From positions 25,066,272-25,130,271 of the forward strand of contig NC_026659.2 in assembly GCF_000004075.3 (NCBI RefSeq): a stretch of 64,000 bases of DNA, given 5' to 3'. The DNA is from Cucumis sativus. Its lineage: Eukaryota > Streptophyta > Magnoliopsida > Cucurbitales > Cucurbitaceae. The stretch's first letter is position 1; each line of letters starts with the position of its first letter. Shown one piece after another: positions 16,505-45,249 of the stretch. The position numbers were made by a program, and so were the translations under genes. The notes below the pieces were generated by a model. It was not told the origin of the DNA. It searched no databases and saw nothing but the letters and a program-made list of their open reading frames with translations.

Positions 16505-17065
16505 GATTGACAAGAGAATTTTTCAAAAATAGAATATTTACTCTCGATAAAAATATCAAGTTTAATTAATTAAGAAAAAAAATAATAAAAGAATATTTGA
16601 CCGAATAGTTACACTCAACAAAAAAATCAATTTTAATTAATTACAAAATTTTGTTAAAAGTAGAACATTTGACAAGATATTTACCATTAGCAATAAAATA
16701 GTTCAATTAATCAAAAAAATATTTTTAAAATAGAATATTTGGCTAAATATTTAGCCTTAATAACAAAATCAAGTTTAACTAATTAGGAAAAAATTTCAAA
16801 AATAAAAAGTTTGGCAAAATATTTACCCTTACTAAAAAAACCAGTTCAATTGTTTCACGAAAATTTTCAAAAATAGAATATTTGACAAAATATTTACACT
16901 TGGAAAAATTGATTTTTCCAAGTATAACAAATTTTGTTTGGAGTAGTTTTTGTAAATAATTTATCAATTTTCTATTTATGGAAAAAAAATTCTTTAATTA
17001 ATTTTGTCTTTTTTTGTTTTATACAGTGTAAATATTTTATCAATTTTTTCTATTTTCAAAAAATC
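16505..17065. repeat. Degenerate ~70-bp tandem repeat with inverted arm
   Basis: Six imperfect units are anchored by the core AATAGAATATTTGACAAAAT near 16524, 16587, 16657, 16727, 16798 and 16870 (spacings 63-72). They are followed by a perfect 12-bp stem with a 2-nt loop (16898-16923) and then by reverse-complement copies of the same core up to about 17065. The array could fold into a long AT-rich hairpin. Confidence 0.7.
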
Positions 17066-22329: not shown

Positions 22330-23995
22330 ATGGCTTCGAAAACAGCGACCAAAGACATAATCACTCTTCGCGGTTCTGCGGCAATTGTCAGCGAGTTCTT
22401 CGGTATATTTATTGCAATTTTCTGTTTAATATGGTTGATGATTGATGAATAATATTGGCTGATTTTTTTTCCTTTTTGTTTTCTTCAATTAGGGTATGCT
22501 GCGAATAGGTATGAATACTGGGTGTTCTTTCTTTATTCTTATTTTTGTCTTTATGATCGTGTAAATTTGGAATTTTTCACTTACGAGAGATGTCGATCGT
22601 AACTGTGTAGCATCCTTTACAATCGTGGGCTTTATCCGGAGGAAAGTTTTGTTAGGGTTAAGAAATATGGACTTCCTATGTTGCTTACTCAAGATGAAGG
22701 TGTTAAGACCTTCATTTCTAATCTAACTGCTCAGCTTTCTGGTTAGTTCCCTTTTTCTGATTGAAAGATTTGTAACTTCTAACAGTTCAGAATTGTGTTT
22801 TTTGTTTCTTTTTTCTCTTGCAGTAGATCAGGTTGTAGTGTGATTTATACTTTCATGAGAACTGTATTTATTGGTGAGTTTTTAAATTGTGAAATTGGTT
22901 TTAGAATGGCTGGAAGCTGGGAAGTTACAAAGGGTTGTGCTCGTTATAATGAGCAAATCCAACAATGAGGTCCTTGAGAGGTGGAATTTTAGAATTGAAA
23001 CTGATGGGGAGGTGGTGGAACAAGGGTAATTCAACAAAAAAACTCCTCTTCCCCCTTTCCTAAATTTAGTGATCTTGTGTTGATCAGATGACATTGTTGC
23101 AGTGTATCGAGGGAAAAGAGTGATAAAGAAATAATGAGGGAGATCCAAGCAATTATGAGACAGATTGCTTCAAGCATCACCTACTTGCCCTGCCTAGATG
23201 AACCCTGTAAGTGCTGACAAAATACATCATTTTACGGATTGGTATAACATGATGTGTGATGTTGCTTGCCCACGTTCTTCTAAGTCCATAGGATGTCTTA
23301 CCATTATGAAATCATTTAGCAGATCCTGTAAGTTTTTCTCCAATCATCACTTGCTCTGCTAGATGATGAGCTGTAGGGGGTTAGCAAGATTACCATGATG
23401 CTGCATTTGCTATTTTGGGGATTAGTTTCACATATGAAGCCTTATATTTTAGGCTGAGTTATGAATCAGCGGGATGTCACAATAGTTCCACCGTGAAATC
23501 GTTACTTTTTATAGATGATTTGAACATAACTTTGAATGGCTATGCATAGGTGTATCTTTCTTATGGGATTTAAGTTCAAATCATGTCCTCAATTAAGATG
23601 ATTTGAACATAGCTTTGAATGGCTATGCATAGGTGTATCTTTCTTATGGGATTTAAGTTCAAATCATGTCCTCAATTAAGTGTTCTCGATGTTTTTGTTG
23701 TCTCAGGTGTATTCGATGTGTTAGCATATACTGATAAAGATCTTGCAGTTCCATTTACTTGGATGGAGAGTGACCCTAAACTGATTGCTAATCCACAAAT
23801 GGTGAAGCTGCATTCTTTTGACACAAAGGTGAGAGAATGGGACTTCGTGCAAGCAAATAAGATCAAACTTATTCGTTCAACTAATCTCGATCCACTGCAA
23901 GCAAATAATTGAACTTTTAAATGGTGTGTGTATTGCAGATTCACAAAGTGGACACTCTTGTTTCTTACAAGAATGATGATGATGACGACGAGTAA
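22330..23995 (+). CDS. MAD2: MAD2 mitotic spindle assembly checkpoint protein (HORMA domain)
   Basis: Seven exons: 22330-22402, 22493-22508, 22611-22741, 22905-23025, 23103-23206, 23707-23828, 23939-23995; 624 nt, 207 aa, all junctions GT-AG and in phase. Arabidopsis MAD2 is about the same length. The whole protein is one HORMA domain, starting MASKTATKDIITLRGSAAIV, with SILYNRGLYPEESF early and FDTKIHKVDTLVSYK near the end, where the mobile safety-belt segment lies. The C-terminus is a run of acidic residues. MAD2 binds CDC20 at unattached kinetochores and holds back the anaphase-promoting complex. Exon 2 is only 16 nt. An in-frame ATG at 22132 lies upstream with no stop between, but the conserved family start is 22330. 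Intron 5 (about 500 nt) carries an 83-bp tandem duplication. Confidence 0.96.
23515..23680. repeat. 83-bp tandem duplication in MAD2 intron 5
   Basis: Copies at 23515-23597 and 23598-23680 differ at a single base (A versus G in ACATA[A/G]CTTTG), so the duplication is recent. Confidence 0.95.
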
Positions 23996-24628: not shown

Positions 24629-26485
24629 AAAAAAAAAAATCTGTACTTTTGTTGCTTTTAAGCTTTGTGAATGAGCATAAAAATCATTCAGGGTTTCCCA
24701 AACCCCATATCCAATGAAATCTGATACAGTTATTATTACATTACTCGATTATTCTTCTGTTTTCTTTCTTCTTCCAAACTCAGCATCCAATGAATTCTAA
24801 TATATATATCATAGATAAATGTTTATGAGATGTTTTAAAATGACCGAAGGTTAGTTGAGTAGGAGACCACTATGAGTGACAAAAATGATTATTCGATATT
24901 GCATCACTGAATTATGCTACCGTTTTCTTCTTCTTCCAAACAAATTGTGAAGGGTTGGGGGGGTGGGTTGAGGATAAAAAAAATGAATATCTTGTTTCCA
25001 AAATATGTCCGAAAAAATGAAGTAGTTCCCTTAGATTTCATCCCCAAAAACAAGGAGGTTTTGTTTCTCCAAACGAGAAGGATATCTTATTCTCAACCTC
25101 TCACTTATGAAATATGTCCAAAAACGGATCTTAGATTTCATCTCAAAGACAATGAAGTTCTGTTTCTCTAATGAAAAACGATGATAAATGTTCTATATGA
25201 AGTTCTGTTTCTCTAATGAAAAACGATGATAAATGTTCTATTCACAAACAATTTTGTATCAAAATTTGTTTTATTTTGACCACCACCTCTTATTCACTTC
25301 AAGTCCATGCCTGAGTGCATTTGAAGAAAAAAAAGTTAAAAACTAGCACAATTTGCACTATTTTTAATGACAGAAATGACACCAAACTTCAAAATATAAC
25401 ACTAGTTTTCAAAAGAGAACAATTAGGATAAGGAAATTTGAACCAAACCTCACATGGTTAATAGTAATGTCAGTTAAGTCAATGAGTCTATTTAACAATA
25501 TAAAGAAAAGAGTGAAAATGGAATGGAAGCACTTTGTAAAGTAAAATAACATATCATCAACCAAGATTGAAACCCCATGCCTTCAACTTAACTCGAGCAT
25601 AAGTCAAATTATTTAGTGAAAATCATATTCCTACGTGCTAAATTAATAATAATTATAAAAAAGATATATGTCAAAGAAGTTGTACAAATCTACAACTATT
25701 GATCAACCAAAGAGTAGATGCAGAATGAATCCTAGCGGAAATTGGAGAAATTGAAGTTTACAGGAACGTTCGACTTCATTTATTTCATTATTGAAACACA
25801 TCCCAACAACAACATGACATTAGGATTCCCACAACGCAATAGAAGTAAAAAATAGGACATCAATCAAAGTCGTAAGACCAACAAGTTCGTAGAAAATTAA
25901 AGAGAGGGAAGGAACAGAGCATAACATGAACTGTCTGACACAAAAAGCATAACTTCGACATACTGAAGAACCACCACAATGACAAGAAACAGGACGTAAT
26001 GAATAATAAAGACGACCAAATCCTATAGATAAATGACATCTTCTCTCCTGACTTCATCAACAGTCGAACGTTCTGAATTGTGTGCACGGATGATGATAGT
26101 CTTCAACAGGCAAGTTCCCAGTAGAGCTTGAGGAAGAAAAACGGAGAGCCGACGTCAAGATGACTAAATCGGAGAAGCAGAAAGTTATTTCCAGAACCAT
26201 GGCACCAATTCAGATACCAGGAGTCTGTCTTTTTCTTTTCTTTTTTTTTTTCTTTTTCTTTTTCTTTTTTTCTTTGGATTCATTCAAAGGTCTAAAAAGA
26301 TCCAACATTTGGATTGAGATAATGCCAATCAATCCTACGATCATTGGCTGTTCAAAATAGGTTTCTGGCAAGAACCAATCTGAAAATTTTAACTTATATG
26401 CACATATAATATAACCAAGAAGCAAAAAGGCTGCAAGAATTGATTCAGTAAGGATAGATGAACCCCGGTTGGCGTTCCTCCCTCT
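24629..26485. other. Intergenic, with local duplications and SKIP14 3' side
   Basis: No gene recognised. Between 25001 and 25241 sequences recur: AAATATGTCC with the following ~60 bp appears at 25001 and, diverged, at 25110. A T/C-rich tract at 26227-26275 and the stretch to 26485 probably belong to the 3' region of SKIP14. Confidence 0.5.
25152..25241. repeat. 45-bp tandem duplication
   Basis: Copies at 25152-25196 and 25197-25241 (ATGAAGTTCTGTTTCTC...) appear identical. Confidence 0.92.
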
Positions 26486-28902
26486 TTATTCACATTTGGA
26501 TATCTCCTTCCCACAATCAATGCAACGCAAGTCCAGACAAAATGTCTCCTCATGTACTGTCTCATCAATGCAGCGTCCACACCAGTTGCACCGAGGTATA
26601 CAAATGGTGCATGCCCTGCATCGCGCCATGTTGGTGTCAGGGTCGGTGTCACCTTCTTTTATTCCCTTACAGCCAACCACCGGGCAGTCATAAACGATCC
26701 TCATATTCATACATTTTGGACATCTTTCTATGTCAATGGCACGCCCACCATCACTTGATGGAAAACGAGGTTCACCTCCTCGATAAAATCGAGGCTGGCA
26801 AGTATCTAGTTGAGTTAAGTTCTCAATACCTACTAACAGCTTCTCCAACTCTTTATAATGCACTTCTGTTACTCCGTATATTCCTGCTACACTTAAATGT
26901 TTTATTCCTGGTCCACCTCTTGATTTGAAGGCTTTCAAATTATCAACAATACCTCCAATTGTGAGTCTTGTGCATCCTGGAACACACAACTACAGAAAGA
27001 AGTACAATTAAAATCCAACTACAATTGGAAATTGATATTTATGTAACATGAAAATTGAAAAGGAAGTTTTTGTACAGTAACGGTACAAAACTTATTTCCT
27101 ACCTTCGTGACTTTAGGATTATTGAGAAGCACCTTGTTAAGACCATCATCACTTATCATTACGCAGTTTACAAGGCTCAGACTTTCCAGACCACCTTGAG
27201 CCTTGCTAGTCAATCTTAAGAGAACATCGTCTGTAATTTTCACATCCGGCTTTCCACATATGTTAATGTTTCTCCAAAAGAAAGGATCCCCTTCTGCAGT
27301 TGACTGCAGGAACTTGCAAACTGATTCAACAAGAAGAAGTTCCCGCGTGCCAAGATAACCAAGCACAAAACTAAAAGCTGCATGAGGAGGTCCACTTGCA
27401 TCAATCGGGACACAGTCTTCCTCGTGAAGAACTACAGGTTGCACCCCAGAAGTTTCAGGTTCAGTACCAAGAGTCTGACATGTATCCACTAAATATGGTG
27501 GTGATTCTGGAACAGTAAAATAGGACATGACACCAGATTTTCTACCGTCAGACCATGTAACGAAGACCCCTCCAGGAAATTCAGATTCAATAGTATGAGT
27601 ATGAATTGAATCCATAACATATGATGATTGAGGATCAGTATGGCAGGTTAGACCACCTGTCTTTCTCCCATCTGACCACACACTGAATCCCTCTCCAGAA
27701 AACTCAGGTTCAACACCAAAAGTCTGAATTGTATCCACAACATATGTGGGTGAATCAGGTTCAGCAAGGCAGGACACACCACCTGCTTCCATCCCACCAG
27801 ACCACACACTGAATCCCCCTCCAGAAATTGCAGGCTCGATATCAAGAGTCTGAATTGTGTCCACAGCATATGATGATCGAGGATCAGTATGGAAGGATAC
27901 CGCACCTGCTTTTCTTCCATCAGACCATGCACTGAATCCACCTCCAGAAATTTCAGGTTCCATACCAAAAGTCTGAATTGTATCCACAACATATGATGAT
28001 TGAGGTTCAGTATGGCAGGATAAACCACCTGCCTTTATCCCGCCAGACCACGAACTGAATCCATCACCAGATTCAGGTTCAATACCAAGAGTCTGAAATG
28101 TATCCACAAGATATTGTGATTCAGGATCAGAGTGGCTGGATAAACCACCTCCTTTTGTCCCATCGGACCACGAACTGAATCCATCTCCAGAAATTTCACG
28201 CTCAATGCCAAGAGTCTGAAATGTATCCACAAGATATGTTGATTCAGCATCCGAATGGCAGGATAAAGCACCGGCTTTTATCCCATCAGACCACGAACTG
28301 AGCCCATCTCCAGAAATTTCAGGTTCAATACCAAGTGTCTGAATTGTATCCACAAGATACGGTAATTCAGAATCAGAATGGCAGGATGCACTACCTGCTT
28401 TTCTCTCATCTGACCACGCACCAAATCCCCCCAGCTCACCAGTACCGTGAAAATTTCCTCCATTTCCAAGGGGAAACGCCTGGAACCTAAAAGCATTGTT
28501 CCAAATATAGTTCAATCCAGCAAAAAGCTCATAATTCTCATCAACTGGGACTCTCTCATCTCTCCCATATCCACTACCATAGTCAACATTCAAATCATCA
28601 AGCCAGCCTGTGATCGCTGTCACAGTAGTACTTATATCCATATCAAAGGGATCTGAAGGCAAGAGATCCAAAACATCCCCCGGGACACAATCTCGCGTCC
28701 CACCCCCTTCGCAGGTATCCTCTAAAAAATTAAGGCAATCCACGAGCTCCCGATTAATCAGCCAGGACGTCCCATAAACATCAAAATTCCTCTCGGAAAC
28801 ATCATCGACAACAAAACCACTTGAAATGTTCATCGAAGAAACCAAATTCTCCTCCGTAAGATGAGAGGGAAAAATCGGTCGATGTGAAAAATTCAAAGCC
28901 AT
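26486..28902 (-). CDS. SKIP14: SKIP14-type F-box protein with an eight-copy internal repeat
   Basis: Two exons, 27103-28902 and 26486-26989; 767 aa. Arabidopsis SKIP14 is much shorter, about 470 aa. The N-terminus (1-157) is acidic and holds SLI-like motifs (YGTSWLINRELVD, DPFDMDISTTVTAITGW). Residues 158-486 are eight tandem repeats of 40-42 residues with consensus GFSxWSDGRKAGxxSCHTDPxS then YVVDTIQTLGIEPEISG. Next is a degenerate F-box (about 507-550, AFSFVLGYLGTRELLLVESV), then leucine-rich segments (ITDDVLLRLTSKAQGGLESL, DDGLNKVLLNNPKVTK). A Cys-rich tail (about 690-767; CPKCMN, CRACTICIPRCNWCGRC) may bind zinc. F-box proteins link targets to SCF ubiquitin ligases through SKP1/ASK; the target is unknown. 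The repeat accounts for the extra length. Confidence 0.93.
27445..28431 (-). repeat. Coding tandem repeat: eight units of 40-42 codons in the SKIP14-like gene
   Basis: The units begin at residues 158, 199, 240, 280, 321, 362, 404 and 445 of the protein. The phrase WSDG/WSGG and the phrase VDTIQT/VDTFQT recur in nearly every unit. Units 2-4 are closest to each other, and units 7 and 8 are the most diverged. The frame is kept through all eight. Confidence 0.95.
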
Positions 28903-36724: not shown

Positions 36725-38135
36725 TTAATTAGAAGGCAACTTGGCATACTTGAGGAACTCTTCATCCACTTCAAACTTATTCATGTGCTCTTCTTTGAGA
36801 TGAACATAAATATCAACTCCATCACCATCTTTTTTGTCAATGAAGACAAAGAGATTCTTAAACATCAAAGCTGGGGAGCTGATCCAAGCGGGTTTGCCCC
36901 ACCCAAAATCGGCGTCGTAAATAGGCATCCGACAGAGGCTAGTGAAGGAACAAGAGACGAGTTCGCCGGTAGAGAATTGTGTAGCCGTCTTCTTCATGGA
37001 GTCGAGGAATTTTGAACCTTCTTGAAGCCTTTTTAGATAGTCTTTGTCGATCTTTCCAATTTCGTTCCTCGCCTGCTTCACAAGATCGTAACAGTAATTG
37101 TCATTGAGAATATTCTCAGAGGGAACTGCAAACGTGGTTCGATAATAGTTTCCAAATGCGTAATCTACAACCGGTGGGTCGAGTCTTGAACGTATGTTTA
37201 CCGAGTGACATACTAGGAATATCTTCTTCTCCGATCCCGACTTTCCATTCTCCAACTCAGAACTAGAGACCTATCGATATATAATAGAAAATTAATCAAT
37301 TTTAGAATTAACTATCAGTGTGTAGAGTGAGCTCATACTTTGTTTAGAAGCTGTAGGGACTTACGGCTTTAATGGCGGCAATAAAACGACTATAGATGAA
37401 GGCAGACAATGCTTCAACTCTCGAAGGCCGCCTCTGGTTTTCCATGGCAGAGCACTCTGCATATTTAGCTCTAATACTTTCAACATTCTCACCATCTATT
37501 TCATATCGTCTCGCCACTCTTTGTCTGAAAATACTCGTCCTCGTGTTGTAAAGCCCCGTCTTCGTCGGAGGAAATAGCTCCGCCGACGACAAATGAGCCC
37601 GCACCACCTCCTTCTCCCCCCGGCAATAAGCAGCCCACTCATTAACCACAATGAACAACGACAGAGCATCGCTGATCTTATGAGAAACACAGATCCCAAT
37701 AACAACGCCGCCGCATTCGAACACATTCAACTGAACCCCCATTGAAACTTCGTCAAGCTGGTCCAATTCGAACGGAAGAAATTTGTTTACTTCAGAAGGA
37801 AACGGTGTGTTCATAACATCGGACAGCCGGCAGTTTATTTTGGTTTCAATGAAAGGAACACCGTTGTCGTTGCAGTCTATGAAAAACTCGTCGTAGTTTA
37901 CTTTACCAGCGAGTGGGTAGTAATGGGTCAAGACATGGGAGAGGGATGTTTTCAGGTGGTCGGAGATTTCGGCAGGGGTGGCAGAGCCGCCCGCTGGATA
38001 GAAATAGACCATTGGGTTGTAGACATCAACGGTGACTTGGTCGAGGAAGGATAAACTGTAACGACGGAGATGCTCCGGCGTTGGAGAAGAGGGTTTGATT
38101 GTTTCTTTAGAAACGATTTCAATTTCCACAGCCAT
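36725..38135 (-). CDS. BAHD acyltransferase, vinorine synthase-like (copy 1)
   Basis: Exons 37365-38135 and 36725-37270; 438 aa, the usual BAHD length. The catalytic HxxxD is HKISD at residues 152-156, and the structural DFGWG is at 378-382 (DADFGWGKP). Both are intact, so the enzyme is probably active. BAHD enzymes are soluble and move an acyl group from acyl-CoA to an alcohol or amine of a specialised metabolite. The N-terminal pattern (IKPSSPTPEHLRRYSLSFLD) fits the branch with vinorine synthase and related O-acetyltransferases; the substrate cannot be read from sequence. The single intron falls right after ..FIAAIKA. Copy 2, 4.5 kb to the right, has exactly the same exon lengths, and a decayed third copy lies to the left. 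Confidence 0.94.
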
Positions 38136-39193
38136 AATTGATTGAAATCTGAAAAGTGAAAGAACAACGTGAAGAAGATAGACGCAGGGGGTGGAAAACG
38201 AAGCTCTGATTTGGATTCAAATTTATGGACATGAAATTGAGTCGAAGTCAAATGGAGACGATAACACGTCATGATTATAATATACATTAACAAAGGTTTA
38301 TAAGTTTAACTTCTTAAGCAAACAAAAATATTTGCATTTACTATTACTAATCGATTCATAACACAAATAACAATCATAGAGCCAACGAGAACTTAGGTGA
38401 ATTATATATATATTAATAGTTGTCATTAACGTATATTTTAGTTTATCTTTGAAGAAAAATGTAGTATTAATTTTGTTTAAGAGTAATACAAGTTTGGGTA
38501 TGTGTTTTTTCTTTATTTAATTGTTTGTTGAATAAGTTGTGCATGGATTGCGTATTCCTTTCCCATTCACCTACTCTTGTAATTGGTTGTAAAAGTGATT
38601 ACCACTAAACCATAATTTAAAATTCCAATTAACCCAAAATTCAAATTTAAACCCCACAATTATGAATTTAGTTTAAATTGTATTAAATTTCATTTTTACA
38701 TCTTGACCTTTTATTTTTTAAGCAAAATAGGTTGAAAAAATTATATTACCAACATTTTTTGAATTAATATGTTCGATGCAACGGATTTTTTAGTTTTAAA
38801 TTTGAATATGTCATCTTTTAGTAAAAAATACTATACAAAAAATAGGAAAATTTTATTATTATTTTGATTCTCAATAAAAGAAAAATATATCTTGAAAAAA
38901 ATAGTACTATATGCAGAAATGACAAAACAAATTATAATAATTAAATCTATAGTACACATACTTTATTATTTATAAAAATAATAAAAAATAAAGGCGAGTT
39001 CACATATATAAAAACTTGAATTTGATTGTTTTTGTTATATTTGCAAAATCACATACCTAAATATCTAAACTAATTTGTCATTCAATACAATTTTTTTTTA
39101 AAAAAAATCTAGCGTAATTTACATTAAAAAATAAATCTAATAAATAAAAAGTATATACATACACATATGATTCACGTGAAGAAGACAAATCAC
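38136..39193. other. BAHD copy 1 promoter and AT-rich spacer
   Basis: The first ~150 bp (38136-38290) resembles the same region upstream of BAHD copy 2 (ATTTATG..., GATAACAC.TCAT), so the duplicated unit included the proximal promoter. The rest is AT-rich with nothing recognised. Confidence 0.55.
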
Positions 39194-42615: not shown

Positions 42616-44041
42616 TTAATTAGAAGGCAATTTTGCATACTTAAGAAACTCTTCATCCGCTTCAAACTTTTTCATGTGCTCTTCTGTGAGATGAACATAG
42701 ATCTCAACTCCATCACCATCTTTCTTATCAATGAAGACAAAAAGGTTCTTGAAGATCAAGGCTGGGGAGCTTATCCAGTCGGGTTGTCCCCATCCAAAAT
42801 CGATATCGTAGATTGGCATCCGACAAAGGCTAGTGAAGGAGCAAGAGATGAGTTCGCCGGTGGCGAATTGGGAGGCCGTCTTTTTCATGGATTCGATGAA
42901 TTTTGAGCTGTCTTGAAGCCTTTTTAGATAATCTTTGTTGATCTTCCCAATTTCTTCCCTCACCTGCTTCACGAGATCGTAACAATACTCGTCGTTAAGA
43001 ACCTCCTCTGAAGGAACTGCAAATGTGGTTCGATAATAGTTTCCAAATGCGTAATCAGGAACCGGTGGGTCAAGTCTTGAGCGTATGTTTACCGAGTGAC
43101 ATACCAAGAATATCTTTTTCTCCGAATCTGAGCTTCCATTTTCCATGCGATCGTTTGAAACCTATTACAAAGGTAATAGAAAATTAATCCCAGTTGAACT
43201 TTCTTTTCTTCCTAATTAAACTTGTAATCATTTAGTCCATAAAGTTAAACAAAGTTTAAAAGGGTGTTACCGCTTTAATGGCGGCAATAAAACGGCTATA
43301 GATGAAAGTAGACAAAGCCTCAACTCTCGAAGGTCGCCTCTGGTTTTCCATGGCAGGACAGTCTGCATATTTAGCTCTAATAGTTTCAACGTTTGCAGCA
43401 TCAATATGATACCGTCTCCCTACTCTCTGTCTAAAAATACTTGTCCTCGTGTTGTGAACCTTAGTCTTCGTCGGTGGAAACACCTCGGCCGACGACAAAT
43501 GAACTCGCACTGCCTCCTTCTCTCCTCGGCAATACGCAGCCCACTCATTAACCACAATGAAAAAAGACAAAGCATCACTAATCTTATGAGAAACACAGAT
43601 CCCAACTGCAACACCGCCGCATTCGAACACATTCAACTGAACCCCCATTGAAACATCGTCAAGCTTGTCCAATTCAAACGGAAGCAATTTGTTCAATTCG
43701 GAAGGAAACGACGTGTTCATTACATCAGAAAGTGGGCAGTTGACACTGGTTTCAATGAAGGGGACACCATCGTCGTTGCAGTCAATGAAAAGCTCGTCGG
43801 AGTTGAGTCTACCGGCGAGAGGGTAGTAATAGGTCAAGAAGTCGGAGAGAGATTTTTTTAGGCGGTCGGCTATTTCGACAGGGGTGGTCGCGGAGCCGGC
43901 AACATAGAAATAAACCATTGGGTTGTAGACATCGACGGTGACTTGGTCGAGGAAGGATAAACAATAGCGGCGAAGGTGGTCCGGCGTCGGAGAAGAGGGT
44001 TTGATTATTTCTTTAGAAACGATGTCGATTTGGACGGCCAT
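42616..44041 (-). CDS. BAHD acyltransferase, vinorine synthase-like (copy 2)
   Basis: Exons 43271-44041 (771 nt) and 42616-43161 (546 nt), exactly as in copy 1; 438 aa. HKISD is at residues 152-156 and DIDFGWGQP carries DFGWG. Most residues match copy 1. Differences cluster at the exon junction (VSNDRMENGSSDSE against VSSSELENGKSGSE) and around residues 90-110 (SVNCPLSDVMNTSF against KINCRLSDVMNTPF). It is a tandem duplicate with an intact frame and catalytic motifs, so it probably works; whether the substrate differs cannot be told. Confidence 0.94.
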
Positions 44042-45249
44042 GATTGATTGAAATTTGGAGAGTGAAAAAAGAAGAAGAATGTAAAGAAGACAAGCTGATG
44101 AGAGGAAGGGGTTGAAAATTGAAGCTGTGTTTTGGATCCAAATTTATGAAGAAATGCATGAAACTAAGTCAAAGCAAAATGAAGAAGATAACACATCATC
44201 ATATAAATAATATAAAGACAATTTTATTTAATTCTTTGTTGAATCAGTTACAATATATATATATATAAAAAATATAAGTATAAGTATATGTATTAATGTA
44301 TATGTGCATTACAATTTTTGTTTCCCACTCACCTACTCCTTGTAACAATGATTGACACACCAAAGTATAATTTGATACAATGAAATATAATCTTTTGGGT
44401 GTCAATGGTGATTTGTTAGTATAATATTGTTGTTATTATCATTATACAGGTGTTTTGTTTTCAATTTTCAATTAATTTGAACTTAATTATATAAATGGAT
44501 GTTGATAATTTAATACGTTTTGAAATTAATTAGTATTAGTTAAGTTTAATTATTAATTTACACGTTTTGGCATTTTTTATTTAGATTTTTGGAACGTTGA
44601 CATTGAAGTAAAAAATTTGTATTTGTTTAAAAAACTACAATTACGGCTCGATTTTTAATTTTTTAAAAAAGAAAAACACAACTTGAGATTAAATTTAACA
44701 AATTCAACTTTGTACATTAAGTGTACAATGAGAAAATATGAGTTTTTCTTTTTCTTTTCTTTCTTTATAATTAAAACTTCATGCAAACTTGGATACTTTA
44801 CCTACAAAATAAGTTAGCTCAATTTTTAAATTAAATAACTTAACTTATTCATTCTTCCACGAACCTCCTCAATGATAGTTTAAGCCCCCATTGAATCACT
44901 TGTACTAATCTTTAATAATCATAATGGAATGAGAATTTGAGAAATGTCAATTGTAATCTACAATTCATGTTCGAATTGAATGTTTTGGATCTTAGAATTA
45001 CGATTGACTTTCGATCTAATTTATTATTATTATTATTATATTTTTCTCCTTCATTTTGTATTTTAATTTTTTTCTTTATAATAGTTATTTCATTATTGTT
45101 TTTGGATTTTGTTTCTTACGAAATTAATGACATAAACTATTTTTTATAATATTATTTTTTCAAATATATATATATATATATATGTAGGCACCAAAACTTT
45201 CTCAAAGTTTGCATCATTGTAAGGACTCCATGACTATGAAACAATCTTG

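Follow-up and report, generated by a model that had tools for sequence, protein, structure and literature searches.

An eight-unit in-frame repeat expansion in the linker of one of three related F-box genes of cucumber

Related proteins and the structure of gene A

The gene described here, called gene A, is provisionally placed with the F-box genes of the SKIP14 type, following a label proposed in an earlier sequence-only reading of the same DNA; Arabidopsis SKIP14 is an F-box protein by name, and the two are likened by this proposed label only. To our knowledge the repeat array of gene A is absent from Arabidopsis SKIP14, and the Arabidopsis locus At3g26000 is presumably that of RIFP1. Degradation of the ABA receptor RCAR3/PYL8 is attributed to RIFP1. 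SKIP14 appears as At3g26000 in a table of PMC5440562. A buckwheat gene that carries the name SKIP14 in PMC8086092 is described as SLY1-like in the part of that paper that deals with it, and because of this description it was set aside as a comparison. Two other kinds of protein resemble gene A in part. The FBXL2-type F-box/LRR proteins (solved chain 6o60_C) share an LRR-like match directly after the F-box, while the array and the cysteine-rich tail of gene A gave no match to FBXL2 in the searches made. The plant ST proteins (DUF2775), in the portion of PMC3499167 used here, are also plant proteins with repeated units of tens of residues, but both their sequence and their host gene differ from those of the array in gene A. 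Literature searches returned no title on gene A or its array among the matches listed.

The window, by which we mean the whole stretch of 64,000 nucleotides of Cucumis sativus that was analyzed, contains gene A on its minus strand. The features of the predicted gene are as follows, with positions counted from the first letter of the window:

28902-27103 and 26989-26486, minus strand: gene A, two exons, 767 amino acids, predicted from sequence alone
27103..28902, minus strand: exon 1, codons 1-600, with the ATG at 28902 and an open frame from the ATG to the donor GTAGG after residue 600
28432..28902, minus strand: conserved N-terminal region, residues 1-157, of which residues 1-144 are 50% identical to paralog B
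27259..27366, minus strand: F-box-like region, PF12937 at 21.1 bits, aligned to the F-box region of paralog B
27136..27243, minus strand: LRR-like stretch 3' of the F-box, phmmer match to FBXL2 (6o60_C), E 0.001
26990..27102, minus strand: predicted intron of 113 bp, GT...AG, phase 0; the frame of exons 1 and 2 is open when they are joined
26486..26989, minus strand: exon 2, cysteine-rich C-terminal region and stop codon, open frame; two paralogs at 55% and 40% identity

The genome searched (G000) is very probably that of cucumber. One of its plantacyanin frames agrees with cucumber basic protein (2cbp) at 61 of 65 aligned residues, the four mismatches allowing for a close relative or a different gene copy, and among 53 listed Cu_bind_like matches 51 fall on contigs C1-C7 and two on C56 and C73, as would be expected of seven chromosomes; cucumber has 2n=14 and C. 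hystrix 2n=24 (PMC7917098). Three related F-box genes were found in the genome, namely gene A, paralog B and a third copy. Paralog B (G000:C2:17388794-17390920, 497 amino acids) is the closest relative of gene A in the genome, and in the searches it was 50% identical in the N-terminal region, 53% in the F-box and 55% in exon 2. The same comparison made outside the array, with B only, gave 49.7% for the N-terminal region and 54.1% for the cysteine-rich C-terminal region. Paralog B resembles gene A, at 50-54% identity, in its N-terminal region, its F-box/LRR region, its cysteine-rich tail and its intron position (B can be spliced at the position of the gene A intron, after LTK), and it differs in having a linker of 71 residues without an array, a stronger F-box score and a (GA)n-like N-terminal insert of its own. 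The third copy lies on contig C5 (23402084-23403254) and is 40-41% identical to gene A, with no match to the N-terminal region of gene A. In the N-terminal region of B (L015:1795-2757), the low-complexity (GA)n-like insert stands before FAxxNxIWNNA, and the sequence of A at that place is unrelated to it; in this gene family, in-frame insertions may be tolerated at two or more positions.

The F-box profile PF12937, with a curated cut-off of 24.3 bits, scored 35.8 bits on exon 1 of paralog B and 26.9 bits on the third copy, both above the cut-off. Gene A gave the weakest score of the three copies, 21.1 bits (E 2.7e-4) when the C-terminal piece of exon 1 was searched and 17.6 bits on the whole of exon 1. 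Because the F-boxes of the homologous paralog B and third copy exceed the cut-off, gene A is by homology probably an F-box gene. Its protein would presumably work as an ordinary SCF subunit. The F-box score at 27259-27366 is clearly lower in A than in both paralogs, and SKP1 binding of A may be altered. The searches made with other parts of the gene added little: the cysteine-rich tail had no match in Pfam, exon 2 had no relative in scans of the non-plant collections genome_contigs and viral_contigs, the PDB search gave a single chance-level match for exon 2 (E 1.6) and, beside FBXL2, a single one for the F-box piece (E 1.3), and a scan for prokaryote-type promoters and terminators gave nothing useful.

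Another reading takes gene A for a copy in decay whose F-box has weakened, or else supposes that the repeat block is spliced out of its transcripts; we regard this as improbable. The score of gene A is, at best, below a cut-off that both paralogs exceed, which counts in favor of this reading, but the 767 codons run without a frameshift or a stop codon. Outside the array, gene A and paralog B differ by a dN of 0.34-0.36 and a dS of 1.58-1.69, which is near saturation, and the resulting dN/dS of approximately 0.21, a ratio that averages both copies, is alike in the N-terminal, F-box and exon 2 parts, which also speaks against decay. As to splicing, a scan of the block found no GTRAG donor-like site and no polypyrimidine acceptor-like site; the scan is a crude one, since the real donor of gene A is GTAGG.

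Anatomy of the repeat array

The array lies between the conserved N-terminal region and the F-box/LRR region, and its units follow each other head-to-tail and in frame:

27445..28431, minus strand: tandem array of eight units, residues 158-486 (TRF and unit alignment)
28309..28431, minus strand: unit 1, 41 amino acids
28186..28308, minus strand: unit 2, 41 amino acids
28066..28185, minus strand: unit 3, 40 amino acids, one codon missing
27943..28065, minus strand: unit 4, 41 amino acids, closest to the other units by mean nucleotide identity, 0.81
27820..27942, minus strand: unit 5, 41 amino acids
27694..27819, minus strand: unit 6, 42 amino acids, one extra Pro codon
27571..27693, minus strand: unit 7, 41 amino acids, which resembles the paralog B linker more than any other unit does
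27445..27570, minus strand: unit 8, 42 amino acids, one extra Pro codon, more diverged than any other unit, with a mean nucleotide identity of 0.70

TRF, run on the window, reported the array at 27446-28428 with a period of 123, 8.0 copies and 77% matches. The best TRF score of exon 1 was 1029, whereas none of 200 codon shuffles scored above 53, so the in-frame head-to-tail units of gene A go beyond chance; the best score in paralog B was 65. The length differences between units are three in all, each of a single codon, and the nucleotide identity between units ranges from 65 to 86%. When the block was used as a nucleotide query against the genome, in a search that skips very common words, one match was returned, the block itself. 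No Pfam family passed its cut-off on the block; DUF992 came up with an E of 0.0011, below its cut-off and with no stretch passing alone, and it was taken as a chance match. The search of exon 1 against solved chains gave one chance-level match (E 0.87). Glycine and serine together make up 30% of the block, and its charge-hydropathy value of +0.036 places it at the boundary, as computed with disorder and hydropathy scales and a boundary formula.

The linker of gene A comprises 358 residues (145-502), of which 329 are array, against the 71 residues of paralog B. Because the closest paralog lacks the array, we interpret the array as an expansion that one paralog has undergone. The sequence-only reading had proposed an F-box gene enlarged by eight in-frame units of about 41 residues, at residues 158-486 (27445-28431), between the N-terminal region and the F-box; the unit count and the coordinates proved exact, the position was confirmed in the 767-residue model, and the gene is of the F-box/LRR type with a closest paralog that has no array. 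Its statement that the protein was nearly doubled relative to Arabidopsis SKIP14 is too strong when measured against paralog B, since 767 against 497 residues is a 1.54-fold difference. The two phrases it had seen recurring do recur, if not always exactly: WSDG is exact in five of the eight units and VDTIQT in four, while WS is found in all eight and DTxQT in seven. Eight residues (W6, S7, G13, Y26, D29, T33, E37 and G42, numbered by alignment column) are identical in every unit. The in-frame repeat expansion in the linker of this one gene copy is thus real.

Selection on the units and the role of the block

The ratio pN/pS, pooled over all 28 pairs of units, is 0.72. By columns it is 0.46 for columns 1-14, which contain the WSDG part, 1.22 for columns 15-25 and 0.83 for columns 26-42, which contain the VDTIQT part; since pS is lowest in this last part, the likeness of the units there is owed more to low divergence than to selection. 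Between pairs of units the three codon positions differ almost equally, by 0.24 at the first, 0.20 at the second and 0.25 at the third. A codon model fitted to all eight units gave an omega of 0.62 (profile interval approximately 0.4-1.0; 2dlnL of 4.4 against an omega of 1), and an omega as low as this was reached in 5 of 400 neutral simulations. A two-class site model, which placed about 41% of the sites at an omega of 0.26 and the rest at 1, fitted better by 2.2 log units, and the eight invariant residues have posteriors of 0.81-0.93 for its constrained class. When unit 8 was left out, the omega of units 1-7 rose to approximately 0.75 (2dlnL of 1.3 against an omega of 1), which is not distinguishable from neutrality, and units 2-7 gave a 2dlnL of 0.94. 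The codon models and the simulations assume one tree, which is contradicted by the recombination signal described below. Constraint on the array is therefore detectable only with unit 8 included, and on these sequence comparisons it looks weak, weaker than in the rest of gene A.

These results bear on two claims of the sequence-only reading. Its suggestion of some constraint on the protein finds weak support in the eight units together, and this is lost when the most diverged unit is omitted. It had also named non-synonymous change as frequent as synonymous change as the outcome that would speak against its view, and the nearly flat codon positions come close to that outcome. That phrases recur in the array is no proof of selection, since units 1-7 are indistinguishable from a neutrally drifting sequence.

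The same reading had suggested that the repeated short motif could be a multivalent docking site for targets. In the form considered here, each unit would carry one motif around W-S-D-G and/or Y-x-V-D-T-x-Q-T, giving the SCF complex several contact points, and with them avidity, for a partner or substrate. We consider this unlikely. The presence of the eight residues in all units, with their posteriors for the constrained class, and the regular spacing of the units at 40-42 residues agree with it, but at least eight invariant residue columns arose in 67 of 400 neutral simulations (nine were observed, one of them a column present in just two units), the signal of constraint goes when unit 8 goes, and the two phrases are exact in only five and four of the units. 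On the block no Pfam family passed its cut-off, and exon 1 matched no solved chain beyond chance; no known docking motif was found, and the claim that the array docks targets is left unsupported. More specifically, a paralog of the cucurbit lineage could have turned one linker motif into an eight-copy docking array that gives the SCF complex avidity beyond that of the non-expanded paralog, with a few residues per unit constrained and the rest drifting; we hold this version to be less probable still.

One specific form of docking concerns LC8 (DYNLL), for which VDTIQT would serve as the docking motif in a ladder through which the F-box protein is dimerized. An anchor-like xQT is present, with the Q in seven of the eight units and the T in all eight, and genes of the LC8 family are present in the genome, all 16 of the PF01221 matches listed being over the cut-off. 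Section 9 of PMC6607443 states that, among the binders known so far, none carries a hydrophobic residue bulkier than Ala at position -4, and that a hydrophobic residue at +2 is poorly accommodated. In the array, every unit has V or M at position -4, and seven have L or F at position +2 (H in unit 7). The reading of the units as LC8 clients was rejected on these rules and seems to us extremely improbable. As a separate observation, Dynein_light (PF01221) has at least 16 matches over the cut-off at ten places, on contigs C1, C2, C3, C5, C6 and C7 of the genome, which suggests roughly ten LC8-family genes or gene pieces among the matches listed.

The explanation that we favor, as a reasonably probable one, is that the array is a tolerated lengthening of the linker with a few retained residues. 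The flat differences over codon positions, the near neutrality of units 1-7 and the lack of an array in paralog B were counted in its support, and the omega below 1 for all units, together with the constrained class of sites, counts against it in that the block is not purely neutral. The block would most likely act as a flexible spacer rich in glycine and serine, with its flexibility and its tolerance both presumed. Since the F-box and the C-terminal region follow the block in one and the same protein, an open frame has to be maintained through it. The eight invariant residues would be kept more than the rest, perhaps because some of them were already needed in the old linker. Gene A and paralog B form a clean pair of an expanded and a non-expanded copy in one genome, on which the effect of linker length and multiplication in an SCF subunit can be tested.

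Origin, growth and age of the array

The tolerated expansion would have begun after the duplication that gave rise to A and B, with the linker of A lengthening to 358 residues from the 71 that B has. A piece of the old linker probably supplied the first unit. Residues 172-192 of paralog B align gap-free to unit columns 8-29, best with unit 7, to which 10 of 21 residues are identical. Shuffles reached the observed score in 42 of 2000 cases for the best unit, 224 of 2000 for the summed score, 127 of 2000 for an ungapped profile and 157 of 2000 for a profile-HMM. Of the 21 residues, 7 match the unit consensus, and these matches lie on constrained columns more often than expected by chance (permutation p of 0.016, for a stretch that was preselected as the best alignment). 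These mixed scores are suggestive of a unit-like stretch in the linker of B that is a possible ancestor of the array unit.

Growth would then have proceeded by in-frame unequal crossing-over, with later exchange of sequence among the units. A PHI-type permutation test was applied to the 23 informative sites; its p value was 0.003 at a spacing of 3 sites, 0.004 at 5, 0.079 at 8 and 0.041 at 12, and the units seem to be recombined, which fits unequal crossing-over with later exchange (or conversion) and bears out the mode of growth that had been proposed from a first look at the sequence. Mean nucleotide identity to the other units is 0.70 for unit 8 at one end, 0.81 for unit 4 in the middle and 0.78 for unit 1 at the other end, with 0.76-0.77 for units 5-7; the divergence of both ends expected of unequal crossing-over is only half present, in unit 8 and not in unit 1.

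The dS between units ranges from 0.12 to 0.76 overall; it is 0.12-0.48 when units 1-7 are compared with each other and 0.56-0.76 when one of the two is unit 8, and single values are noisy, as a pair of units has only about 29 synonymous sites. As these values are smaller than the A-B dS of approximately 1.6, the growth of the array would postdate the duplication into A and B, provided that no older divergence was erased by exchange among the units. The opposite order, in which the SKIP14 family had the array from the start and both B and the third copy lost it, has a low probability in our judgment: exchange could lower the dS between units, yet even unit 8 is still far below the A-B value, and the linker of B has no more than one stretch that resembles a unit.

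Under the LTR-based rate of 4.5e-9 that PMC6856369 uses, in the part drawn on here, the dS values correspond to ages of approximately 13-54 My within units 1-7 and 62-84 My where unit 8 is one of the pair; these ages depend on a rate for LTRs that may differ from the synonymous rate, and they would be minimum ages if sequence exchange between units lowered their divergence. The same part of that paper dates the cucumber-melon split to approximately 10 My and gives 18.1 My for the separation of wax gourd and watermelon from the Cucumis clade. From these sequence divergences the array is probably younger than the A-B duplication and older than the cucumber-melon split. Most of the array is predicted to be common to melon, and the number of units to be stable among cucumber accessions; a fixed eight units is expected across accessions because the units are only 65-86% identical in nucleotides.

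Other repeated features were seen in the window. Two similar Transferase-family (PF02458) genes, apparently a tandem pair, lie on the minus strand at 36725-38216 and 42616-44143; their Pfam matches are in the ORFs at 37344-38216 and 43256-44143, and the downstream ORFs at 36725-37270 and 42616-43161 are also alike. Two-copy repeats are found at 25152-25241 (45 bp at 100%) and at 23513-23680 (83 bp at 98%), both outside ORFs of at least 140 amino acids, and they look like recent duplications. An AT-rich repeat of 71 bp, with 5.2 copies and 73% matches, occupies 16533-16901.
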